This document shows positions 18,441-30,015 of a stretch of DNA of 64,000 bases, one piece after another. Each line of letters begins with the position of its first letter. Position 1 is the first letter of the stretch. A program made the position numbers and the translations under genes. The DNA is from Leptothoe kymatousa TAU-MAC 1615. Its GTDB lineage: Bacteria; Cyanobacteriota; Cyanobacteriia; Phormidesmidales; Phormidesmidaceae. The stretch lies in assembly GCF_018739865.1 (NCBI RefSeq), contig NZ_JADOER010000012.1:186001-250000 (forward strand), read 5' to 3'. Under the pieces are notes generated by a model that was given only the letters and a program-made list of their open reading frames with translations, did not search any database and was not told where the DNA came from.

Positions 18441-19058
18441 ATGGGCGATATGGTCAAGTGTGGAGTGAAGCTGCTAGGTGGAGCCTTGTCTTTCCAGGCA
18501 GCCCTACGTCGGCTAACGGTGGTTTGCGCGATCGCAATGGTGCTAATTCCTATTCTTTGCGTTCCGGGGCAGGCGTTGGCCAGCCTCACTGACGATCGGT
18601 ATGACGGTAATATCTTTGCGCTCTATGCCGGTAACGGCGCGATTGTGCCCCCGCGAGTAACGTTGGCCCAGTCCCTCAAGCAGGAAAAACCCACGCTTCT
18701 GTTTTTCTATGTGGACGATAGTCGCGACTGCAAAGAATACTCATTTGTGATTTCCCAGCTGCAGGCCCCCTATGGTCGAGTGGCGAATTTTGTGCCGGTG
18801 ATGGCTGATGCTATTCCACTAAAAGAGTCGTTTACCCCTGATGAACCAGGGTATTACTTCACAGGTTCAGTCCCTCAAACCTTGGTCCTAGATGGCAGCG
18901 GCAAGGTGAAGTTTGATCAAACCGGTGCCCTGGAGTACGAAGTGGTAGACGATGTGTTCCGTGATGTTTTCAACTTGCTGCCCCGTACAGAATCCGAAGA
19001 ACTCCGCCGTCGCCCAGTGAATGAGCTGAATATTGAGCTAGTTCCTAGCGGCTCATAG
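18441..19058 (+). CDS. Thioredoxin-fold thylakoid protein, photosystem I accumulation factor-like
   Basis: A 205-residue protein with a signal or anchor segment (about 25-47, ending at an AxA-type site) followed by a thioredoxin-like domain. The stretches DDRYDGNIFALYAGNGAIVPP, PTLLFFYVDDSRDCKEYSF and GSVPQTLVLDGSGKV match a cyanobacterial and plastid family that I recall being named thylakoid membrane photosystem I accumulation factor. In place of the CxxC of classical thioredoxins there is DDSRDC with one cysteine, so it is unlikely to be a normal disulfide reductase. The family call is from memory. Confidence 0.62.
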   Translation: MGDMVKCGVKLLGGALSFQAALRRLTVVCAIAMVLIPILCVPGQALASLTDDRYDGNIFALYAGNGAIVPPRVTLAQSLKQEKPTLLFFYVDDSRDCKEYSFVISQLQAPYGRVANFVPVMADAIPLKESFTPDEPGYYFTGSVPQTLVLDGSGKVKFDQTGALEYEVVDDVFRDVFNLLPRTESEELRRRPVNELNIELVPSGS

Positions 19059-19068
19059 CCTGCTTGCC

Positions 19069-19551
19069 TTGGGAGTTTGTACCGACGTGCAGGAATCGGT
19101 TCCCCGTCTAACGGTATGTGCCTCGTTAGTTGAAAAAATTGCCAACCAAGCAGCCCTGTGTCGAACCTGTGAGGTGCTAGGTGTGGAGCGATTGATTTTG
19201 CCCGCGCCCACCATCTCTGCGTGGGAGTTTCGTAAAATAGCGGCGTCAGCTCAGCAATGGCAGACTGTGGATTATTGTCCCCCTGAGGAGCTGGGAGTTT
19301 GGCTTGGCCAACAGACTGACTGTCGGCGGGTGGCCTTGACTGTACATCCCCATGGCCAGTCTTTGGGGCACTATCGATTTGCGGCTAATACGCTCTTGAT
19401 TTTAGGGCGAGAACTGACGGGAATCCCTGATGATGTGGTGTCCCGATGCGATGAGGCGTTGACTATTCCCCAATATGGCCAAGTAGAATCGCTCAATGTG
19501 CAAACGGCAGGTGCGATCGCGATCTACGAATACAATCGCCAGTGGCGATGA
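19069..19551 (+). CDS. SpoU-family RNA methyltransferase
   Basis: A 160-residue SpoU/TrmH-type enzyme of the SPOUT fold, which 2'-O-methylates tRNA or rRNA. Motifs 1-3 are visible: NQAALCRTCEVLGVERLIL (N-terminal), LILGRELTGIPDD (about 110) and IPQYGQVESLNVQTAGAIAIYE (C-terminal, with the SLNV knot signature). Members like this often modify tRNA-Gly or tRNA-Leu. The start is uncertain: no ATG is available; TTG 19069 and GTG 19084 are candidates, and a stop at 19039 limits extension. It lies 10 bases after the preceding gene. Confidence 0.83.
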   Translation: MGVCTDVQESVPRLTVCASLVEKIANQAALCRTCEVLGVERLILPAPTISAWEFRKIAASAQQWQTVDYCPPEELGVWLGQQTDCRRVALTVHPHGQSLGHYRFAANTLLILGRELTGIPDDVVSRCDEALTIPQYGQVESLNVQTAGAIAIYEYNRQWR

Positions 19552-19642
19552 CCTGGGTCCCGTAACCATGTCCTGTGGGTCTGCATGGCGCTGTTTTCGC
19601 AAGGCTGTATAGAACAGACAGCAGACAGCCAATTTTTCAGGC

Positions 19643-20032
19643 TTAATCCATGGGGATATCGGCGGTTTCGGAGACTTCTTCGACGACGTCGTCGAGGTCA
19701 ATATCCACTTCGTCCAATTCCAGCTGCTGGACTTCCGCCTCTTCTACGGGCGTATCCGGCTCTAATGGGTTGGTCCGCACTCGTCGAATGGGCAGGTTGG
19801 CCATTAAGGCCGTCGTTCGCTGATCCGATTCAAACGAAAACTCCAGGCTCTCGGTGTCTATTTCCACGTAGCGCACAACCACGTCCAATATTTCCTGGCG
19901 CATCTTTTCCAAAATCTGGGGAGAAAGATCCGCACGGTCATGGGCTAGCACCAGGCGCAGCCGCTGCTTTGCTGTTTCACGGCTTACCGTTTCACGGGTG
20001 CCAAAAAGTCTTTCGAGAAAATCGCTAATCAT
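19643..20032 (-). CDS. minE: Cell division topological specificity factor
   Basis: MinE drives the pole-to-pole movement of MinD by stimulating its ATPase, keeping the FtsZ ring at mid-cell. The 129 residues begin with the membrane-targeting [11 protein letters not shown], followed by the MinD-binding helix ([19 protein letters not shown]) and the dimerisation domain. A long acidic tail (about 95-129, [13 protein letters not shown]) exceeds the E. coli protein (88 residues), as is common in cyanobacteria. Last gene of minC-minD-minE. Confidence 0.95.
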
Positions 20033-20096
20033 GGTCGTCTTTGATTAGGCGGGGCGTAAGCGCAACGGTCGCCGCCCGTCGACCGTCTGGGTAAAA

Positions 20097-20897
20097 TTAT
20101 GTAAATAGTTGACGTAATTTTTTAAAAAAGCTTTCCTTCGGTGCACTCAGATCCATCAGGGGGACTTTTTCCCCTTGTAGCCGTCGGGTAATGTTGGAAA
20201 TGGCGATGCCTGCTTTGGTGAGTTCTTTGCCTAAAATTAGCGGTTCTCCATTGTTGGTGGATACAACTACCTGTTCATCGTCAGGAATAACGCCCAGGAG
20301 AGGCACCGCTAAGATATCTTGCACATCTTTGACCGACATCATTTGTTCGGCCTCCACCATGGCTGGTTTGAGCCGGTTGATGATCAATCGCATTGCCTTA
20401 ACGTCATTCGCTTCTAGCAGGCCAATGACCCGGTCAGCGTCCCGCACCGCAGAGATTTCTGGGGTGGTGACGATGATGGCTTCGCGGGCGGCTGAAATGG
20501 CATTGCGAAAACCCATTTCGATGCCAGCGGGGCTGTCGATTAAGACAAAGTTATACGCTTTGGACAGGGCCCGCACCAGTTTTTTCATCTGTTCCGGAGT
20601 AATGGACTCCTTCGAGCGATTTTGGGCGGCGGGCAGCAGGGCCAAATTTGGCTGCCGCTTATCCTTGACGAGGGCTTGGTCAAGGCGACATTCACCAGCC
20701 AGCACATCTAGGGCTGTGTAGACGATACGATTTTCTAGACCTAGGAGCAGGTCTAAATTTCGTAATCCAAAGTCGGCATCAATGACAACAACGCGTTTGC
20801 CTGCCTTGGCGAGGGCCATTCCCAGGTTGGCTGTGCATGTAGTTTTCCCAACACCTCCCTTGCCGGAGGTAACAACGATAATGCGGTTCATAGCCAT
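20097..20897 (-). CDS. minD: Septum site-determining ATPase
   Basis: MinD is the membrane-bound ATPase that recruits MinC and MinE. Visible are the deviant Walker A KGGVGKTT (about residues 13-20, with the signature Lys), DADFGLRNLD, the switch DSPAGIEMGF, and a C-terminal amphipathic tail (PKESFFKKLRQLF) for membrane binding. The 266-residue length is standard. It sits between minC and minE on the same strand, 64 bases before minE. Confidence 0.97.
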   Translation of the reverse strand: MAMNRIIVVTSGKGGVGKTTCTANLGMALAKAGKRVVVIDADFGLRNLDLLLGLENRIVYTALDVLAGECRLDQALVKDKRQPNLALLPAAQNRSKESITPEQMKKLVRALSKAYNFVLIDSPAGIEMGFRNAISAAREAIIVTTPEISAVRDADRVIGLLEANDVKAMRLIINRLKPAMVEAEQMMSVKDVQDILAVPLLGVIPDDEQVVVSTNNGEPLILGKELTKAGIAISNITRRLQGEKVPLMDLSAPKESFFKKLRQLFT

Positions 20898-20982
20898 GGA
20901 TTCAATGGGCGATTGAGGACGTTATTCGTGGGGGATTGGGCTCAAGTAGGGCAATAATCGCACGTTGTGGCAAATTTTATAG

Positions 20983-21002
20983 AAAATTCCTTTAGGAATT
21001 TT
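20983..21002 (-). terminator. Hairpin between minC and minD
   Basis: A perfect 8-bp stem (AAAATTCC / GGAATTTT) with a 4-base loop lies in the 152-base gap between minC and minD. Another weak stem (AAAAGG/CCTTTT, about 21025-21052) is next to the minC stop. They could lower read-through and set different minC and minD levels, or stabilise processed mRNA. Confidence 0.4.
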
Positions 21003-21049
21003 GAGGTTCGTCTCGCTGCACGATAAAAGGTTTGCCATCGAGCCTTTTT

Positions 21050-22069
21050 TTAAGGGGTGTCTACGGGGAGCTGGGCAAAATCAGCTGCGATCGCAATCCG
21101 GATGCTTCCCTGGCTGATATAAGCCACCTCCGGTTGATAGTGAGCGGGTGGTTTTTCCGGCGCGCGGGCAACCTTATCGGCAATGCGGAGCTGGGTGGGT
21201 TCCATCTGTAGGGCCATGATGCGGCAATCGGCATTGCCCTCGGACCCGGCATGGGCCACCCCCCGGAGACGCCCCCACACAAAGATGTCTCCCGCTGCCA
21301 CCAGGGAGCCGCCAGGATTTAAATCGCCGAGGACTACAATTGACCCTGGATGACGAATTTCAGTGCCAGAACGCACGGTAGCTTGCAGATAGAGAGGCGC
21401 ATCTAACGCTTCTCCCGCATCTGGACTCTGGTTGAAATGGTCTAGTTTGGTATTTTGCTCCACCGAATATCCGGCAGTAACAGCAGCAACGGCCGTTTGT
21501 CTACGCTGGGTATAAACCCGTTTCATATGTAGCTGAGCGGCACTTAAAAGCTCATCAATTTCCTGTAATTGGCGACCATCCAGCAAACGGTCTCGGGCAA
21601 TTAAATGAACTGTGGTGTTGGGTTGGAGAAATCGGTCACCAGAATTTAACCGCAGCGTGAGCTGCTGACATAGCTCCTCCCATTCTGATGGCGCAAAGCT
21701 CGTAGTCGAGGACGACGGTAGCAGCAGCAATAGCCTTCCCTGCTCACTTTTTAACGTGATTTGCTGCTTTGGCTGGCTATCCGCCGTATCCACATCTAAA
21801 TCAATGGTGGATACATCGACGAGGGGGGACGTGTTCTCGTCTCCTTGGTCGGTCTCATCAAACACGAAAAGTTCGACATCTTTCGATCGTTTTAATCGTG
21901 CTGATAGGGCCGCACGACTACTTTTGCTGGCGTTTTTTGGCGATGCTTTGACCGATTTTCTAGGTGGGGAGGCTGATGCAGAGGTATTAGCTTCAACCCG
22001 ATCTCTTTCGATATCGCCAGGATTGTCGGAGGAATTTGAATTAATTGGTTGATCGTTTCCGTTACCCAT
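21050..22069 (-). CDS. minC: Septum site-determining inhibitor MinC
   Basis: MinC blocks FtsZ polymerisation away from mid-cell. Of 339 residues, about the first 105 are a low-complexity, Ser/Asp/Lys-rich region with no match to E. coli MinC. Next comes the N-terminal FtsZ-inhibiting domain, then the C-terminal beta-helix domain with the classic VVLGDLNPGGSLVAAGDIFV and WGRLRGVAHAG turns that bind MinD. Cyanobacterial MinC often has such an N-terminal extension. First gene of the min cluster. Confidence 0.94.
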   Translation of the reverse strand: MGNGNDQPINSNSSDNPGDIERDRVEANTSASASPPRKSVKASPKNASKSSRAALSARLKRSKDVELFVFDETDQGDENTSPLVDVSTIDLDVDTADSQPKQQITLKSEQGRLLLLLPSSSTTSFAPSEWEELCQQLTLRLNSGDRFLQPNTTVHLIARDRLLDGRQLQEIDELLSAAQLHMKRVYTQRRQTAVAAVTAGYSVEQNTKLDHFNQSPDAGEALDAPLYLQATVRSGTEIRHPGSIVVLGDLNPGGSLVAAGDIFVWGRLRGVAHAGSEGNADCRIMALQMEPTQLRIADKVARAPEKPPAHYQPEVAYISQGSIRIAIAADFAQLPVDTP

Positions 22070-22781
22070 GTTCGATTTGGCTCAGGCCTCCTTTAGGACA
22101 CCCGTCGCTACATATAAAACACGCTGACCACCATGGAGTGTGACCGCAGAGCATACACAACTATATAGCCGGACTCGATTTTTGAGAGGGCATCGATTTT
22201 GATGTCATCAGTCTTTAGAATTTTTATTTTTGCCGAGGTTACCGCCGTAGGAACTCGTCGTTATCAGGTTATATGGGCAAGATTTTGGCTTGATCCGCAA
22301 TTTGGCAATAAAGCTTTACGAGATCCCAGTGGGTAAATAAAAAAAAACTGAAGTTATTTCTTGCTTACTGAGTCAGGGGCATACGGTTAAAAACGATACA
22401 TTCCAACCCATGTCTTGAATGAAAGACAAAATGTCTTTTTCTAAAGACATTAGGCTACTTTTTCCGCCACATGTCGCTGGGTAATCAGGGCAAATGCAGC
22501 AGGAAATGTTGTCTAGTTATTTTTTATACTTGGTTTGGTTGGATAGCTTTTTAGCCTATAAGACCCAATTCTCAGTGTGAATTAGGATCAAAATGCTGTA
22601 TTTCACCTTGGTTACTTAAGGTATCTAGGTTTTTGTAGGGTTTTCCGGACATCTCAAGGTAAATTATTTTTCCTTGGGGCGATAAAATTGCTGATAGTTC
22701 TGTAATCTGCTGATTCAGGTTTCAGGTTGGGTCCTATGGAGTTTCGGTTTACACAGCTCTTGTTAATACGAGGTTTTCGAC
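22070..22781. other. Intergenic region upstream of the PstS-like repeat protein
   Basis: 712 bases, AT-rich. A perfect 9-bp hairpin AATGTCTTT-TTCT-AAAGACATT is at 22431-22452. A 44-codon open frame (22202-22336) has no ribosome site or recognisable product and is not called. The region holds the divergent promoters of minC and the 22782 gene. Confidence 0.5.
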
Positions 22782-25058
22782 ATGCTTAAGCCCCGCTCTG
22801 CATTCTCCTTGGCGGCTACGGTTGCACTACTCACAGTTATTGCACCTAGTCAGCCATTTTCTCGGTTTACTGCCGTAGCTACAGCGGCGACCTTTGAGGT
22901 GCCTGCTAACGTGCCCACTGGTACTACAGTTCAGGTCAGCAGTGGCTCTGATGCCATGACCGTAATCAGTGATGCCCTTAAAACTGGTTTTGAAGATAAG
23001 TTCACGGGCTCTGATATCAGTATTGATACGGTGGGTGCCGACCAAGCCATTGAGTCCGTACTTAGCGGCGACGTAGATTTGGCCGCCATTAGCCGTCCCC
23101 TGAGTGACGCTGAACTTGGCCAAGGTCTAGCGTCGGAAGATGTGAAGCGTGTCAAGATTGCAATTATTGTCGGTGCTGACAATCCCTTCGACGGCAGTTT
23201 AACTAGCGAGCAGTTTGCTCAGATTTTCCGCGGTGAAATCCAGGATTGGTCCGAAGTCGGTGGCCCCAGTGGTGCCATTCGTTTAGTCGATCGTCCTGAT
23301 GTCAGCGAGACCCGTACGTCTTTGTCGGCCTACCCTGTGTTCAAGGCGGCTGAGTTTGCGACTGGTTCCAATGCCACTCAGTTGGGTGCCGATAGTACGT
23401 CAGATATTGTTGAGCAACTGGGTACAGACGGTATTAGCTACGCCTTGGTTGAGGAAGTAGATGCCATGGATGGCGTGCGTACGCTGCCCATGCATAAAAC
23501 CATGCCCACCGATGCGCGCTATCCGTTCTCTCAGCCGTTTGCCTTTGTTTACAAGGGTGAGCCTTCTGTGGGTAGTGCAGCCTTTTTGGGCTACGCCACC
23601 GGTGCCCCTGGTCAGACCGCATTGAAATCGGTGAATCCCTTGGCGGGCTTAGCGAATGCTGCGGGGGATGCCGCCGGTGCCGCCGGTGATGCTGTGAAAG
23701 GGGCAACGGATGCTGCGGGTAACGTCGTTGGGGCCGCTGGCAATGCTATTCAAGGGGCTGCTGGCGCGGCCGGTGATGCTGTGAAAGGTGCCGGTGATGC
23801 GGCCGGGAATGTGGCTGGTGCCGCCGGTGATGCTGTGAAAGGTGCCGCTGGTGCTGCTGGCGATGCGGTGCAAGGCACAGCCGATGCTGTGGACCAGGCT
23901 GTGAGCGATCGCAACCCTAAAGCGCAGACGCGCCTCAATCTGTGGTGGCTAATGTTAGTCCCAGCCGGTTGTTTGGCGTTAGTTGCTTGGGGTGAGCGCC
24001 GTCGCAAGCGGGGTGATGATCCTGCTTATGTTGCCGCTGCCGATTCCACGTATGCCGCTAAGACTCCAGGACCCAAGGGTTCCATCGGTTTGGGTAAAGC
24101 TGGTGCTGCTGCGGGCGGTGCTGCCGCTGCGGCCGGTGGCGCTGCTTGGGCCGCTACTCGTAAAACGGGTGATGCTGCTAAAGGTGGCTTAAATGCCGTT
24201 GGTGATACTGCCAAGGGTGGCCTCGGTGCCGTTAAAGGTGGCCTTGGTAATGTCGGCGATGCTGCCAAGGGCGGTGTGCGCAATGTGAAAGGTGGCCTTG
24301 GTAATGTCGGCGATGCTGCCAAGGGTGGCCTTGGTAATGTGAAAGGTGGCCTTGGTAATGTTGGCGATGCTGCCAAGGGCGGTGTGCGCAATGTGGGCAA
24401 CACTGCCAAAGGTGGTCTGGGCGCTGTTAAGGGCGGTCTAGGCAATCTGGGTGATGCCGCTAAAGGTGGCGTCAAGAATGCTGGGAATGCAGCCAAAGGC
24501 GGTCTCGGCGCTGTGAAAGGTGGCCTTGAGAATGCGGGTGATGCCGCGCAAGGTGGCATCGGTAATCTCCACGGTGCTGCTCAGCAAGGTGTTGATGGCA
24601 TTAAGGGTGGTCTCGGCAACGCTGGCAATGCCGTCCAAGGCGGCGTTGGTGCCATGGGTTCTGGCCTGAAGGGCGGTTTGGATAGCGCCGGTAATGCCGT
24701 CCAAGGCGGTGTTGGTGCCATGGGTTCTGGCCTGAAGGGCGGTTTAGATGGCGCTGGTAACAGCTTGCGCGATGGTGCGGATGCTGTTACCGGTGGTGTG
24801 GGCGATATGGCCAACAAAGCAGGCGATGCCCTTAAGGGTGGAGCCGGTGCGGCTAAGGATGCCCCTCGTTCCCTATGGGATCGGGTGCGTGACGGCGTCA
24901 ATAATGCAACTAACACTGTTGCTGGTAAAGCCGATGACATGGCCAATCAAACTAAGAACCAAGCTGGCAATCTAAAGGACCAGGCTGAAAACCTAGGTCA
25001 GCAGGGTATGGATAAGGCGTCTGAAATTACTGATAAGCTAACTAACTCAGATAGCTAA
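22782..25058 (+). CDS. Chimeric protein: PstS-like binding domain, membrane helix, long Gly/Ala repeat tail
   Basis: A 758-residue protein. Residues 1-37 are a signal peptide ending at TAATA. About 40-280 form a phosphate-binding-protein-like (PBP) domain: SSGSDAMTVISDALKTGFE, LSGDVDLAAISRPLSD, LTSEQFAQIFRGEIQDWSEV. About 285-375 are Ala/Gly-rich repeats (GAAGDAVKGA). A membrane helix (about 384-400, WWLMLVPAGCLALVAW) with ERRRKR after it places the tail inside. Residues 468-663 are 20 repeats of 11 or 7 residues, then a charged helical end like LEA proteins. The binding domain would sit in the periplasm and the repeats in the cytoplasm. It is not a normal PstS, and no pst genes are near. tilS follows after 17 bases. 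Confidence 0.85.
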   Translation: MLKPRSAFSLAATVALLTVIAPSQPFSRFTAVATAATFEVPANVPTGTTVQVSSGSDAMTVISDALKTGFEDKFTGSDISIDTVGADQAIESVLSGDVDLAAISRPLSDAELGQGLASEDVKRVKIAIIVGADNPFDGSLTSEQFAQIFRGEIQDWSEVGGPSGAIRLVDRPDVSETRTSLSAYPVFKAAEFATGSNATQLGADSTSDIVEQLGTDGISYALVEEVDAMDGVRTLPMHKTMPTDARYPFSQPFAFVYKGEPSVGSAAFLGYATGAPGQTALKSVNPLAGLANAAGDAAGAAGDAVKGATDAAGNVVGAAGNAIQGAAGAAGDAVKGAGDAAGNVAGAAGDAVKGAAGAAGDAVQGTADAVDQAVSDRNPKAQTRLNLWWLMLVPAGCLALVAWGERRRKRGDDPAYVAAADSTYAAKTPGPKGSIGLGKAGAAAGGAAAAAGGAAWAATRKTGDAAKGGLNAVGDTAKGGLGAVKGGLGNVGDAAKGGVRNVKGGLGNVGDAAKGGLGNVKGGLGNVGDAAKGGVRNVGNTAKGGLGAVKGGLGNLGDAAKGGVKNAGNAAKGGLGAVKGGLENAGDAAQGGIGNLHGAAQQGVDGIKGGLGNAGNAVQGGVGAMGSGLKGGLDSAGNAVQGGVGAMGSGLKGGLDGAGNSLRDGADAVTGGVGDMANKAGDALKGGAGAAKDAPRSLWDRVRDGVNNATNTVAGKADDMANQTKNQAGNLKDQAENLGQQGMDKASEITDKLTNSDS
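24183..24770 (+). repeat. Twenty tandem 11- and 7-residue repeats in the PstS-like gene
   Basis: The 588 bases encode 14 units of 11 residues (type GGLGNVGDAAK) and 6 units of 7 residues (type GGLGAVK), mixed in register; every unit begins GG (or QG) and ends in K, Q or R. The two unit lengths are both three- or two-turn helix periods. The DNA copies are close, for example gctgccaagggtggc recurs. Confidence 0.94.
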
Positions 25059-25075
25059 CCCACTAATTTCATGTA

Positions 25076-26074
25076 ATGCCTTGGACTCAGCTCCACGCGC
25101 AGATTCATACCTTACTTAAGGCAAAATTCCTGCTTCCCCCAGATTCCTCCATCTTGATGGCGGTGTCGGGGGGGCAGGATTCTTTGTGTATGGCTCAGTT
25201 ACTGATGGATCTGCAGCCAAAATGGAACTGGCGGTTGGGTCTGCTCCACTGCGACCATGGCTGGCGCGATGATTCATCAGACAATGCGGCCCATGTGGCA
25301 CGGTTGGCCCAGCAATGGCAGTTGCCATTTTTTCTTGAGACAGCCGTCGACTTGGTTCCAACGGAAGCCGCAGCCCGCACTTGGCGGTATGAAAAATTTG
25401 CAGACATTGCCCAGACCCATGGCTATGCCTATGTGGTGACCGGCCACACAGCCACCGATCGCGCTGAAACAGTCCTGTTTAACCTATTGCGAGGCAGTGG
25501 GGCAGATGGTATTCAAGCTTTGAGCTGGCAGCGGCCTCTCGGCGCGGAAGGCTTAGCTGGTTTGGTGACCCGACCTTTGTTGGCCATAACCCGTCAGCAG
25601 ACTGGGGAATTTTGCCAAGACCGAGATTTGCCGATATGGCAGGATGCCTCTAATGATGACTGGCGCTATCGACGCAATCGCATTCGGCAAGAATTGATGC
25701 CTTATTTGCGATCGCACTTTAACCCAAGCGTAGAAGCCACATTAGCTCAAACCGCTGAGATCTTTACCGCTGAAGTCACCTATTTAGAAAATCAAGCTGC
25801 CCAACTCCATAGCGATGTCGTTGAAACATCACCAGGTGTCTGCCGCATCCGTCGCTTCCCATTGCGGGAGGCCCCTTTGGCTTTGCAGCGTCGAGTTGTC
25901 CGGCGTGTTTTACAAGCAGTCCTCGACCAGCAACCCAGCTTTGATCACATTGAAAAACTTGTCTGTTTAGCCACGGCACCCAATCGCAGTCAGACAGATC
26001 CATTTCCAGGGGGCGTCATTGCCTACGTAGACGCAGACTGGATCAAAATTTCGAAGCCTCCCCTGGTGTCATAG
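25076..26074 (+). CDS. tilS: tRNA(Ile)-lysidine synthetase
   Basis: TilS changes the wobble C of the tRNA-Ile(CAU) anticodon to lysidine so that it reads AUA. The 332 residues contain the PP-loop AVSGGQDSLCM (about 28-38) and the family stretches HCDHGWRDDS, VVTGHTATDRAET and RPLLAI, with DASNDDWRYRRNRIR. The C-terminal TilS substrate domain of the E. coli type is absent, which is normal for cyanobacteria. It is 17 bases after the preceding gene and may be cotranscribed. Confidence 0.94.
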   Translation: MPWTQLHAQIHTLLKAKFLLPPDSSILMAVSGGQDSLCMAQLLMDLQPKWNWRLGLLHCDHGWRDDSSDNAAHVARLAQQWQLPFFLETAVDLVPTEAAARTWRYEKFADIAQTHGYAYVVTGHTATDRAETVLFNLLRGSGADGIQALSWQRPLGAEGLAGLVTRPLLAITRQQTGEFCQDRDLPIWQDASNDDWRYRRNRIRQELMPYLRSHFNPSVEATLAQTAEIFTAEVTYLENQAAQLHSDVVETSPGVCRIRRFPLREAPLALQRRVVRRVLQAVLDQQPSFDHIEKLVCLATAPNRSQTDPFPGGVIAYVDADWIKISKPPLVS

Positions 26075-26130
26075 CTATGGACAAACTAAATTTCGCTTTA
26101 GACTAAGAATGAAAACGTAATGTCTCTGCT

Positions 26131-26937
26131 ATGCGCTGGTTATTGACGGTTGTTTTGAGTTTATGGCTACTCGTTGGCACCCTCGGTGCGGCCGTGTTTG
26201 CCCCTGCGGTGGCGGCGGCGCCAGCAGATATCCCAGCCGGAGATATTGCCACACTGCGGAAGCAGGCCTTTGACCTCACCCGTAGCGGTAAATTTGATTT
26301 AGCCGAGGTGGTGTGGACTCAGCTGATCGACGCATTGCCCGATGAACCTGCTGTTTGGAGTAACCGTGGCAACGTGCGGGTCAGTCAAAATAAAATTGAT
26401 GCAGCCGTGCAAGACTATACCCATGCCATTGCCCTGGATGGATTACAGCCAGATCCTTATCTCAACCGAGGTGCTGCCTATGAAGCCGCTGGTGAATGGC
26501 AGGCCGCCATTGATGATTACAATCGCGTGCTGAAGCTATCCCCCGATGATCCAGCCGCCTACAACAATCGAGGCAATGCCCAAGGAGGCCAAGGCGATTG
26601 GGATGCAGCCCTACAGGACTATGAGCACTCAATTACCCTGCAACCGAGTTTTTCTCTCGGCTATGCTAATTACGGAATTGCCCTCTTTGAGGTCGGCGAC
26701 CAAGCAAAATCTCTACAAGTATTAAAAAGTCTGGCCCGTAAGTATCCCAACTATGCAGACGTACGAGCGGCATTAACCGCCGTTCTTTGGGAAACGGGCC
26801 ATCGGGGAGAAGCGGAAAGTCAGTGGGCTGCGGCCCGTGGTCTAGATCGCCGCTACAGCGATTTGGACTGGGTGAAAAATGTTCGGCGTTGGCCACCTTC
26901 TTTGGTCAAAGGGTTAGACAACTTTCTTAAGCTTTAG
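26131..26937 (+). CDS. Secreted TPR-repeat protein
   Basis: 268 residues: a signal peptide or anchor (1-30, ending VAAAPA), then about four to five tetratricopeptide repeats from residue 35, with repeated WSNRGN, PYLNRGAAYEAAGEW and AYNNRGNAQGGQGDW cores. TPRs bind other proteins, so it is probably a periplasmic or lumenal scaffold. Similar cyanobacterial TPR proteins assist photosystem assembly, but nothing here shows that directly. Partner unknown. Confidence 0.85.
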   Translation: MRWLLTVVLSLWLLVGTLGAAVFAPAVAAAPADIPAGDIATLRKQAFDLTRSGKFDLAEVVWTQLIDALPDEPAVWSNRGNVRVSQNKIDAAVQDYTHAIALDGLQPDPYLNRGAAYEAAGEWQAAIDDYNRVLKLSPDDPAAYNNRGNAQGGQGDWDAALQDYEHSITLQPSFSLGYANYGIALFEVGDQAKSLQVLKSLARKYPNYADVRAALTAVLWETGHRGEAESQWAAARGLDRRYSDLDWVKNVRRWPPSLVKGLDNFLKL

Positions 26938-27893
26938 CAGCCTATGGATGGTTGAGGTCAGGTACTGGTCTGCTTGACCGTATGACCTAGATGTTTGCAA
27001 CTCTATAAATCCTCTTTTAAATGTAGCCTAAGCTACCAAAAAAAACTTTCCATCAGTAGGAATTACTGTCAGCTTTGGCCTTCACTATTGAGTCCTGACT
27101 GTACATTTTTGGAGTCAGATTTTTGGGCGACAATTTCTATCTGCATCCCTAGGGATTTTTCCATGGGTTGGAAATAGTGACAGCGCGGGGCTCAATAAAA
27201 TCCCATCCGAATGTCTGTTGTTGCGAATGTTAGTGACTGAAAGTCATTTGAGCCGCTGACATTGTCATATTTCTAAATATTAGACACATGGGTTATTGAT
27301 TATAGAAAAAATATTTTTTGGTTAAAAACCCTCTTGCATCAATGTTTTGAGTGCCTTATGGGTGCTAATTGTTACGAAGAAAAAATAATTTCAGTCTTTC
27401 TACGATAGAAGTTAATAGAACTGTATTGAATACTGGAATTCAAATCCGTTTGTTAGGGTGTTGAGGGCAATTGTTTTTTGTACTAAGGGTGTGTGCGAAA
27501 AATAATTTTCCTACCTTGTAGAGAATTTCACAGCTATTTATTCTGAATTTTTGGTGTTCCTGGTGTCTACTCAAGACTTGTAGATGTAGGTTTATGTGGT
27601 TTTGAGTTTTTAGCAATGTCAGCCACAAATAACATGGCCAATTCTTATTCGTTGATTGATTTTTGGCGTCTATTTGTATAGAGCCTGTTGCAGTTAACTA
27701 TGCCTGGATTTTTTGATGATCTTAGGGATAGTACAGACAGGTGCACAAGATTTTAAGTGCAAAAAATACGCTGATTTGAATCGTCTTAAGCATGTCTTAG
27801 GCGCTGTCGGTTTGTGGTGCCTATGGGCTACAAAGATCGGTCAACATTTATGGATACTGTCACTGCTTATATTGCTTTCTGTATGGGCATCCT
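26938..27893. other. Long AT-rich intergenic region
   Basis: About 950 bases, noticeably AT-rich, with no supported gene, hairpin terminator or repeat. Two short open frames (27440-27628 reverse; 27713-27919 forward) have neither ribosome sites nor family features. The forward one could be a degenerate remnant. Confidence 0.5.
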
Positions 27894-29237
27894 ATGTATC
27901 AAATTCTCTCTATTTATAAATTAACCCAACTGCAATCTTGGGTTGCGGGATTGAAATCATTTTTGCGTGGTCAATTAGACAACTTTCAGTTTTCGAATCC
28001 GCGTGCTGTTTGCATGAGGCAGTCTCATCAAATTCTCGAACCTACTCCTAGGATGTCCTATTGCCCTGATTCTGAAGAATCCTTGGCCTGTGTGCTCCAG
28101 CAGCAGTTGCAGCGGCATATTAATTTAAGGAATGTCATTCGGCGTATTCACCGCAGCTTAGCGATCGATGAACTTCAGCACACGATTGTGAATGATTTTT
28201 TGCAGTTTTTTCAGGCAGATTGGGTTTTTCTTTTAGAAAAGAAACATGGTCGCTGGCAACCGATTTATCGGCCAGCTTGTTTATCCGAACCCGACCATTT
28301 AGATGCGTTAAGTGATTACCTCGCCTTAGAGCAGGTAAACGCAAAACTTTCCCATTGTGATGGGATGACCGTGCCTAATCAGGCATTCCATCACAATGGC
28401 GAACAGCAGTGCCCGCCAGACCTGGCTGGATCTTGGTTATTGATGCCAATGCATTTACCGCGAGCCTCTGGTCAAAATTCGTCGCCTTGTAGATTAGTGG
28501 CGATTGGCTCAAAGCGGAGGGCTCATCTATGGACTGTGGAGCACCAGGAGCAGGCGAGCCTGCTAGTGGATGAGGTGGGTGTGGCCCTGGACCATAGTCG
28601 CCACTATGAAGCTCTCAAACTACATAATCGCGAGTTGAAGTCCCTGGCGTTGACAGATAGTTTGACTGGCTTAGCAAATCGTCGTCAGTTTGATACTTAT
28701 TTCAAGACGGAATGGCAACGCCTAGCTAGGGAAAATCAGCCGCTGACGTTAATTTTGTGTGATATCGATTATTTCAAGCTTTATAACGACTACTATGGCC
28801 ACCCCACAGGTGATGTTTGTCTGACTCAGGTGAGTCAGGTGCTTGCCCGTTGCATTCGTCGCCCTGCCGATTTGGTGACTCGCTATGGGGGGGAAGAATT
28901 TGCAGTGGTTTTGCCCAATACGGATACGTCAGGGGGGCACAACGTGGCCTTGACGATTCAAGAGCAGTTGGCAAAAGCTGCCATCCCCCATGAGACGTCT
29001 GAGGTATCGGAAAACATTACCTTAACTATGGGGATTGCAACGGTGATTCCCAAGCACCACCTTTGTCCCCAAGATCTTTTGCAGGCGGCAGATTTGGCCC
29101 TTTACCATGCTAAGCAGCAAGGGCGCGATCGCATCTATGTCCACGCTCACTATTATCTACATAGCGACGAGGCATCGCCAGAAAATAGCCAGCTCAATGG
29201 TCAAAAGCTTGATGCTAATCAGGGGCTCGATAGTTAA
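27894..29237 (+). CDS. Diguanylate cyclase with an N-terminal GAF-like domain
   Basis: A 447-residue enzyme that makes cyclic di-GMP. A GAF-like sensory domain spans about 70-235 (LAIDELQHTIVNDFLQFFQADW). The GGDEF domain spans about 250-415 with LTGLANRR, the metal site DIDYFKLYND, and the active-site motif GGEEF. RPAD stands five residues before GGEEF, so the RxxD inhibitory I-site is intact and product feedback is expected. No EAL domain is present. The start is uncertain: several Met codons lie in the first 50 residues. It converges with tpiA. Confidence 0.92.
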   Translation: MYQILSIYKLTQLQSWVAGLKSFLRGQLDNFQFSNPRAVCMRQSHQILEPTPRMSYCPDSEESLACVLQQQLQRHINLRNVIRRIHRSLAIDELQHTIVNDFLQFFQADWVFLLEKKHGRWQPIYRPACLSEPDHLDALSDYLALEQVNAKLSHCDGMTVPNQAFHHNGEQQCPPDLAGSWLLMPMHLPRASGQNSSPCRLVAIGSKRRAHLWTVEHQEQASLLVDEVGVALDHSRHYEALKLHNRELKSLALTDSLTGLANRRQFDTYFKTEWQRLARENQPLTLILCDIDYFKLYNDYYGHPTGDVCLTQVSQVLARCIRRPADLVTRYGGEEFAVVLPNTDTSGGHNVALTIQEQLAKAAIPHETSEVSENITLTMGIATVIPKHHLCPQDLLQAADLALYHAKQQGRDRIYVHAHYYLHSDEASPENSQLNGQKLDANQGLDS

Positions 29238-29287
29238 ATCAGCCCCCCGGCTAAATCAGCCCCCTAGGCTAGGTTAGCCCCCCAGGC
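29235..29287. repeat. Three degenerate 17-18 bp C-rich repeats between two convergent genes
   Basis: The gap of only 49 bases between the diguanylate cyclase stop and the tpiA stop is made of three near-copies of TAAATCAGCCCCCCGGC. The part GGCTA-GGT-TAGCC can form a short hairpin. It may serve as a two-way termination or pause site. Confidence 0.6.
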
Positions 29288-30015
29288 TAGCTGACGTAAT
29301 TCACAATGCGAGCAAACGTCTCAGCTTCTAAGCTAGCGCCCCCTACCAGGGCACCATCAATGTCTGGTTGAGCCATAATTTCGTCCACATTACCCGGCTT
29401 AACCGAGCCACCATACTGGATGGGGACATCCTTGTTGGCGAGCTGAGAGCGAATGAGCCAACAAACACGATTCGCTTCATCAGATGCGCAAGTATCACCG
29501 GTGCCAATGGCCCAGATCGGTTCATAGGCAATGATCAACTTACTTTGATCAACACCGGCTAATGCTTTTTCAATTTGGCCAACGACATGGGTTTCGGTTT
29601 CACCGGCATCCCGTTGTTCCTTGGTTTCACCGACGCAGAGAATAGGCGTTAACCCTGAGGCTTGTGCCGCTTTTAGACGCAAATTTACCGTTTTATCCGT
29701 TTCCCCAAAATATTGGCGACGTTCGCTATGGCCAACAATTACATAACGAACCCCAAGCTCAGTCAACATTTCTCCGGAGACTTCCCCCGTATATGCGCCC
29801 GATGTTTCCCAATGAATATTTTGTGCACCTACCATAGCCCGAGAGCCATGGAGTGTTTTAGACAGGGAGGTTAACGCTGTAAAAGGGCTACACAAAATAA
29901 CCTCGCGCTGTTCAGGAGTGGTTTCTAGCTGGGGTAGAAATCCATTCAAAAACGCCAAGCTGTCCGCTTGGGTTTTGTGCATCTTCCAGTTACCAGCGAT
30001 AACAATTCTTCGCAC
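29287..30015 (-). CDS. tpiA: Triose-phosphate isomerase
   Basis: Interconverts DHAP and glyceraldehyde-3-phosphate in glycolysis and the Calvin cycle. 242 residues with the Lys site (AGNWKMHKT, about 7-15), the catalytic His [10 protein letters not shown] (about 95) and the catalytic Glu in [11 protein letters not shown] (about 163), plus the phosphate-loop motifs YGGSVKPGN and GALVGGASL. Standard length. pnp lies upstream on the same strand, about 150 bases away, with a hairpin between. Confidence 0.97.

Follow-up and report, generated by a model that had tools for sequence, protein, structure and literature searches.

Giant amphipathic helices built from sequence repeats have been studied best in animals, in the perilipins, synuclein and the apolipoproteins. 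A period of 11 residues is also typical of LEA proteins, LEA group 3 being composed of 11-residue amphipathic repeats. In a different class of proteins, the PstS-type binding domains, the SGT loop of E. coli PstS contacts phosphate. In the literature, we found neither a description of the domain architecture analyzed here, an absence that is not proof, nor a study of the cyanobacterial group of proteins with a PBP domain, a membrane helix and a cytoplasmic part to which it belongs.

The available excerpts of a study of perilipin 4 describe a Plin4 helix with hydrophobic, aromatic and charged fractions of 0.35, 0.002 and 0.15, respectively, the repeats of which are unfolded in solution, can turn helical on lipid and bind through many weak contacts along their length (PMC5889406). 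In the same excerpts, the Plin4 signal at the yeast cell periphery is related by the authors to positive charge, and the purified helix is said to interact poorly with bilayer membranes (PMC5889406). The latter makes the comparison drawn below weaker for an untethered tail.

Here, we report a computational analysis of a gene of Leptothoe kymatousa TAU-MAC 1615 that lies in a stretch of 64,000 nucleotides, referred to below as the window. We consider the product to be, with a probability of about 0.55, a bitopic receptor-like protein in which a long tail would form a weak amphipathic helix at the membrane surface.

The open reading frame (ORF) at 22782-25058 of the + strand starts with ATG and encodes 758 amino acids without internal stops; its features and neighbors are collected in Table 1. 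Many residues of the signal peptide are invariant across two aligned orthologues, as are NLWWL and RR of the membrane-helix region, and the hydropathy peaks of the membrane helix reach 1.67-1.78 in three same-genus orthologues. The PBP_like_2 domain scores 98.6 bits against a gathering cut-off of 27, and the only other Pfam match in the protein at E up to 1 is a sub-threshold one to LysR_substrate. With a signal peptide recognized by eye, this domain, a membrane helix and a long cytoplasmic part, the protein has the composition of the cyanobacterial PBP-TM-cytoplasmic group. The full domain order recurs in three other genomes of the genus, where the best-matching stretches are 67, 65 and 63% identical, and these orthologues, along with the conserved gene order, rule out an assembly or private artefact. 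The ORF, the Pfam match, the unit count and this recurrence bear out the PstS-like domain, membrane helix and twenty-unit tail noticed in an earlier, sequence-only reading.

Table 1. Coordinates of the ORF features and neighboring genes in the window
Feature	Positions	Strand	Basis and remarks
minC, divergent upstream neighbor, then minD and minE	21050..22069	-	Gene names by eye; order conserved
Signal peptide, residues 1-35	22782..22886	+	By eye: MLKPRSAFSLAATVALLTVIAPSQ...ATA
PBP_like_2 (PstS-type) extracytoplasmic domain, residues 45-273	22914..23600	+	Pfam PF12849, E 6.9e-28
Loop R171-PDV-S175-E176-T177-R178	23292..23315	+	Aligned with RPSESGTQ of Sll0540
Pre-membrane Ala/Gly repeats, residues 288-373, amphipathic, 7/11 spacing	23643..23900	+	Motif spacing and moment
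Membrane helix NLWWLMLVPAGCLALVAW, residues 386-403, then GERRRKRG (positive-inside)	23937..23990	+	Sequence, by eye
Ala/Gly-rich segment, weakly hydrophobic, one Trp, residues 440-460	24099..24161	+	Sequence
20 GG-started units (11/7/18/15 aa), residues 468-685, phase-locked amphipathic repeat	24183..24836	+	Unit count, moment
C-terminal amphipathic segment SLWDRVRDGVNN..., residues 696-758	24867..25055	+	Coherent moment 0.383 at 98.8 degrees
tilS, downstream neighbor	25076..26074	+	Gene name by eye; order conserved

The tail is more regular than the earlier description of strict 11- and 7-residue units implied in some respects and less strict in others. All 20 units start with GG and 17 are exactly 11 (12 units) or 7 (five units) residues long; two units of 18 residues and one of 15 depart from the rule. 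In an alpha-helix, 7 residues make two turns, 11 make three and 18 make five. The hydrophobic moment of the repeat is in phase end to end: calculated over all 218 residues, it is 0.365 at 99.2 degrees, compared with a local mean over 18 residues of 0.371. For residues 458-670, the moment at 98-102 degrees is 0.352, against a shuffle mean of 0.074, and none of 2000 shuffles reached the observed value. When columns were permuted within the 11-mers and 7-mers, with GG and the periodicity retained, the observed moment was reached in 5 of 3000 trials. The unit lengths themselves matter: when the 7-mers alone were changed to 6, 8, 9 or 10 residues, or the 11-mers alone to 10, 12 or 13, the moment fell from 0.360 to within 0.11-0.22, and 11-mers changed to 14 gave 0.28.

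On a helical wheel, the repeat has an apolar face free of charges, made up of V, L, A, I and M with a few G; Lys lies mainly on one flank, and Asn and Asp lie opposite. In the 11-mers, the apolar positions are 3, 6 and 10. The Gly/Ala repeats reported ahead of the membrane helix are likewise real. They carry AAG[DN] motifs spaced by 7, 11, 7, 11, 11, 7 and 11 residues, with a coherent moment of 0.312 at 99.6 degrees; they thus use the 7/11 spacing of the tail, a feature absent from the earlier description.

As a yardstick, moments were computed for the open frames of 300 codons or more in the window and in 92 loci, 265 in all with antisense frames included, a sample rich in PBP-TM proteins rather than a genome. 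The six highest values (0.335-0.386) belong to the window protein, its three orthologues, a protein from G045, a genome of another family, and an antisense frame of the G045 gene; the seventh, at 0.245, is the orthologue from G031, a genome of another genus, and the median is 0.142. Moment coherence, helical wheel, permutation controls and frame scan all back the earlier proposal of an amphipathic helix with an 11-residue period, of the apolipoprotein or perilipin type. By its phase coherence over a long repeat and its low aromatic content, the tail would fall among giant 11-mer amphipathic helices of the Plin4 kind, as a matter of likeness, not descent. The fractions of hydrophobic (0.36), aromatic (0.000) and charged (0.16) residues in the repeat, of which 34% is glycine, are close to those given for Plin4 in the excerpts available, and the moment of 0.371 compares with 0.257 for Plin4, by methods that are similar but not identical (PMC5889406).

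Sequence conservation can be followed among the four proteins of the genus. Synonymous differences per site are near saturation (0.54-0.82 over four parts of the gene), and nonsynonymous differences per site, compared pairwise, amount to 0.11-0.18 for the PBP domain, 0.14-0.22 for the repeats ahead of the membrane helix, 0.17-0.28 for the tail and 0.15-0.31 for the C-terminal segment. Of the 24 indels that separate the three orthologues from the window protein in the helical regions, 22 shift the phase by no more than 45 degrees, as would 24% of lengths from 1 to 50; this count is tied to the way in which repeats change, because unit-wise duplication or slippage alone preserves phase, and a binomial test on it overstates the independence of the events. 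Five indels fall in linkers, with lengths of 10, 10, 2, 5 and 1. The GG spacing is looser in two of the orthologues (G001 and G006) and in the G045 protein than in the window protein. The G006 tail has a net charge of -6, and positive charge of the tail is therefore not conserved.

A search of 59 genomes gave a match at E <= 1e-10 in 39, the own genome included. The tail described here is present in four of the eight genomes of the genus, counting the window, and the part after the PBP domain is matched at E <= 1e-6 in five of 63 family genomes, counting the own one, with G031 as a marginal fifth; the tail of the G031 orthologue gives a sub-threshold Apolipoprotein match (19.9 bits, cut-off 90). 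The architecture with this tail is real and conserved in a small clade.

The domain order itself is less isolated than the sequence-only reading, which knew of no described system with it, had supposed. PBP_like_2-TM-cytoplasmic proteins form a widespread cyanobacterial group: in a phylum sample with at most two candidates scored per genome, 92 of 386 genomes gave matches at E <= 1e-20 (own included). The 30 rows with loci, that of the window among them, are frames of 763-1588 codons, and many of the lower-ranked rows are short, solitary PBP proteins of about 300-340 codons. Among 17 representative PBP-bearing relatives, Pfam recognizes PBP_like_2 in all, DUF4912 in 10, TPR in four, WD40 in four and part of an AMP-binding enzyme in one; four have no domain above the cut-off beyond the PBP. 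The own genome encodes two PBP-TM paralogues in tandem, one of the TPR type and one of the DUF4912 type. DUF4912, TPR and WD40 are all absent from the window protein (Pfam, E up to 1). Plasmid records contain matches to the PBP domain only, covering at most 34% of the query among the matches listed. Tails in the group change fast.

A tree was built from 81 PBP rows, that is, the 86 of the loop census described below less five distant or cut rows. The four rows of the window clade and three orthologues from another genus (g13) form one set of seven with support of 100/99; its sister, with modest support (91/82), consists of proteins of family f28, the tails of which contain DUF4912-like motifs by motif count rather than by Pfam. 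The window protein is nested among fused proteins. It seems, then, to be a variant, with an amphipathic tail, of a widespread kind of protein that is known to databases and seemingly uncharacterized.

By sequence, the closest PDB relative of the binding domain is Sll0540 (9l8j, E 2.3e-49, the best of nine distinct chains listed). Against the TIGR02136 (PstS) model the protein scores 79 bits, the curated cut-off being 206.6, and in place of the SGT-type phosphate loop of PstS, found in both Sll0540 and the Clostridium-type PstS 4q8r, it has S175-E176-T177. The loop census comprised 86 PBP rows (domain longer than 200 residues, E <= 1e-12, window included), 76 of them continuing for over 150 residues beyond it. 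In these 76 fused proteins, position 176 is Asp in 64, Glu in five, Ser in four, Gly in two and Ala in one, and Arg178 and Tyr184 are present throughout; Arg178 is also found in 4q8r. Only eight rows are short-tailed PBP proteins, two of them at contig ends, which is too few for comparison. Orthophosphate is uncertain as the ligand because an acidic side chain replaces the loop glycine, and backbone contacts could remain. Given the change from Gly to Glu in the loop, the PstS score below the cut-off and the presence of only two poor Pho-box-like matches upstream, phosphate sensing, to which the earlier reading pointed, is doubtful.

These two matches are the only ones in the gap between minC and the ORF; they overlap, consist of poly-T, carry three mismatches and lie on the opposite strand, and phosphate regulation was rejected as a candidate. 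Window-wide, the Pho-box-like tandem pattern used for the scan gave 52 matches where 38.7 were expected, and three of 100 shuffles reached 52. The promoter scan of 22070-26200 returned no promoters and the terminator scan of the same interval two terminators, both counts being under the shuffle means; an Rfam scan of 21500-26500 returned no matches. No transporter gene was recognized by eye in 19000-30000.

G003 and G006 share the order minE-minD-minC, ORF, tilS, as do the other-genus genomes G019, G026 and G031; in G001, a short contig carries tilS and the genes that follow, and minC is on a separate contig. The orthologues in G019, G026 and G031 have a different tail, rich in D, G and S, with a similar C-terminus, and the helix phase is weak in G031 (0.245) and places G019 and G026 outside the 25 highest frames. 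G035, a genome of the same genus as these three, encodes between tilS and minC a protein with a signal peptide, a membrane helix, a tail and a similar C-terminus but no PBP domain; the W..R start of the C-terminal segment is similar in this protein and in the orthologues. At the same place, G011 encodes a PBP-less protein of 258 amino acids with a membrane helix. G004 has no gene of this kind between minC and tilS, and in it and at least 13 other family genomes, judged by coordinates, the two genes are less than 1 kb apart, which leaves no room for one. Beside minC in the remaining loci examined, no such gene was found by frame ends and hydropathy only. With minC and tilS adjacent and the gene missing in many genomes, its place says little, and we claim no link to Min or cell division.

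A second case comes from G045, which belongs to another family. Its frame of 884 codons encodes a PBP domain, pre-membrane repeats, a membrane helix and a tail in which the motifs are mostly 4, 7, 11 or 18 residues apart, with some longer gaps; the coherent moment over 360 residues is 0.315, equal to the local mean. The next gene of this genome encodes a PBP protein with an acetyl-CoA-synthetase-like part, and the two PBP domains are sisters, with support of 100/100. The PBP tree and an AU test (p 0.001, a value weakened because the test group was picked after a quick tree) reject a common origin of the G045 protein and the window clade. Given this placement and rejection, a similar amphipathic tail was most likely gained independently in the G045 clade, so that it arose at least twice on the PBP-TM chassis. 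When the part of the G045 protein after the PBP was used as the query, with at most three candidates scored per genome, matches at E <= 1e-5 came from four genomes among 386, the own genome and three with weak matches.

Compared with the described systems, the window protein resembles perilipin 4, alpha-synuclein and the apolipoproteins in having a long, repeat-built, nearly aromatic-free stretch of weak amphipathy with 11-residue units, and differs from them in its mixture of 7- and 11-residue units, its 34% Gly, the tether provided by the membrane helix and its bacterial host; the likeness lies in sequence features, with no homology shown. With the cyanobacterial PBP_like_2-TM-DUF4912 proteins it shares the PstS-type domain, the membrane helix and the presence of a cytoplasmic part, which in the window protein, unlike in these, is mostly amphipathic repeat. 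PstS and Sll0540 belong to the domain family of its binding domain and have R, S and T at the corresponding places of the loop, whereas the Glu for Gly in the loop and the membrane anchor set the window protein apart. LEA group 3 proteins have in common with it the 11-residue amphipathic repeats, but the mixed 7/11 units and the membrane tether are unlike LEA, and the 758-residue protein gave no match to a LEA profile in Pfam at E up to 1.

In the reading that we prefer, a PstS-like domain outside would be joined via one membrane helix to a cytoplasmic part of the kind that varies across the group, here a putative giant, weak amphipathic helix of 7- and 11-residue units with L, V, I, M and A on one face. 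This tail would be mostly unfolded in solution and kept beside the membrane by the membrane helix; held there in advance, it would need weaker contacts than a free tail. By analogy with the repeats of perilipin 4 and alpha-synuclein, it may fold along the plasma or thylakoid membrane, on the cytoplasmic leaflet, and, once folded, coat the membrane or sense its packing. Residues 440-460 are a possible membrane-dipping stretch, to judge from their composition; segments resembling this one recur, by eye, in the tails of relatives. A second stretch of the 7/11 grammar would lie just outside the membrane, where its net charge of -6 would not favor anionic lipids. The glycine content of the repeat disfavors a stable helix. 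Coating of the cytoplasmic leaflet is proposed on the strength of the repeat sequence; in a presumed signaling step, a ligand on the outer domain may alter clustering or tail occupancy, and that the outer domain tunes the coating of the membrane by the tail is a guess.

The same composition, with 45% Gly+Ala over the tail, nearly no aromatic residues and a period that is also LEA-typical, might point to a Gly-rich, hydrated, disordered chain at the membrane anchor, acting as a LEA-like protectant or entropic spacer without membrane contact. Such a spacer needs no helix phase, yet the phase is kept across indels and is common to the four same-genus proteins and the independently arisen tail of G045; since a match to LEA is also lacking in Pfam at E up to 1, we hold this alternative to be unlikely. 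In another alternative, the 3-4-4 pattern of L, V and A would form a small-residue hendecad coiled coil that oligomerizes the receptor, in keeping with the apolar positions of the 11-mer and with a best angle that falls between 98.2 (11/3) and 100 degrees. However, a coiled coil is unlikely to be stable with GG heading every unit and 34% Gly, and the polar face is mostly Gly, Asn and Asp with Lys on one flank, without rows of Glu/Lys salt bridges, which makes this account quite improbable.

It is more improbable still that the tail reflects low-complexity drift, that is, easily expanding Ala/Gly-rich linker repeats with no specific role. Fast change of tails across the PBP-TM group, the restriction of this tail to half of the genus and the D/G/S-rich tails at the same place in the g13 genus are what drift would leave; nonsynonymous differences in the tail that are well below the synonymous ones, phase coherence far above that of the other long frames scanned and the appearance of 7/11/4 spacings in the independent G045 origin argue against it. 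A similarly small chance attaches to a different topology, in which residues 440-460 form a second membrane pass and the repeats lie outside, beside the pre-membrane repeats written in the same grammar. In its favor, the segment contains Trp and basic residues, is weakly hydrophobic and has counterparts in relatives; that of the G031 orthologue peaks at a hydropathy of 1.67, exceeding the 1.6 line, and more peaks follow the first helix in several further relatives. Against this, the three same-genus orthologues have no second peak above 1.6, and the TPR, DUF4912 or AMP-binding parts beyond the first helix in relatives suggest the cytoplasmic side.

The bitopic protein with a tail at the membrane surface thus remains our preferred reading. 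Its fullest form is more tentative and, in our estimate, clearly short of even odds: in at least two cyanobacterial origins, a receptor would have acquired as its output, instead of a catalytic or docking domain, a giant 7/11 helix on both sides of the membrane, and an outer binding protein with a remodeled anion loop would control the coating or shape of the membrane from inside. If true, this would provide a simple bacterial system in which to study the influence of tail length, phase and weak hydrophobicity on contact with the membrane. The analysis also outlines a large cyanobacterial group of PBP-membrane-cytoplasm proteins, with DUF4912, TPR, WD40 or an acetyl-CoA-synthetase-like part and an altered ligand loop.

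Contig C14 of the TAU-MAC 1615 genome encodes a tandem pair of paralogues with a PstS-like PBP_like_2 domain and a membrane helix, one of the TPR type and the other of the DUF4912 type with seven-fold DUF4912. A C-terminal domain to which the Pfam scan assigned no name is common to the two, at 42% identity over 132 columns (E 2e-28). In a single ORF of contig C4, we recognized by eye a Ser/Thr-kinase-like domain, a membrane helix and a C-terminal PstS-like domain, an order that mirrors that of a PBP receptor. A second 11-mer protein of this genome is also encoded on C4, by a lipoprotein-like ORF of 144 codons that is built of 11-mers of the AVDAAGDAAGG type, displays the same amphipathic phase as the window protein (0.313 at 99.2 degrees) and contains a lipobox-like VAACGG, read by eye.

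Coordinates of the features discussed
Source	Position	Feature
C14	L007:4750-8322	PBP-TM paralogue
C14	L007:8894-13654	PBP-TM paralogue
C4	L005:1177-3249	kinase-like ORF
C4	L006:1438-1872	11-mer ORF
window	24099-24161	Ala/Gly-rich segment
G058	L046:1386-4961	DUF4912 relative
G045	L050:9299-13087	enzyme fusion
G035	L204:770-1876	syntenic gene

Among the cyanobacterial relatives, the DUF4912 protein of G058 contains a long run of short SGVGMSGVGMYTMSGVG-type repeats. In four others (L047, L053, L063 and L088), WD40 repeats follow the PBP domain and precede the next hydropathy peak, a position that is probably on the outer side of the membrane. Hydrophobic, Ala/Gly-rich segments of about 20 residues, similar to GGAALAGGAAMAAGAGAAAW, were seen by eye to recur in the cytoplasmic linkers of the group, including the tails of L190, L192, L195 and L201 and the window protein, and are possibly membrane-dipping elements. 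Adjoining the amphipathic-tail gene of G045, a single frame encodes PBP_like_2 and a membrane helix together with Ala/Gly segments and a part that resembles acetyl-CoA synthetase (ACAS_N, AMP-binding and AMP-binding_C).

The G035 gene that, like the window gene, lies between minC and tilS encodes a signal peptide, a membrane helix and a tail, without the PBP domain, which has been gained or lost at one locus.
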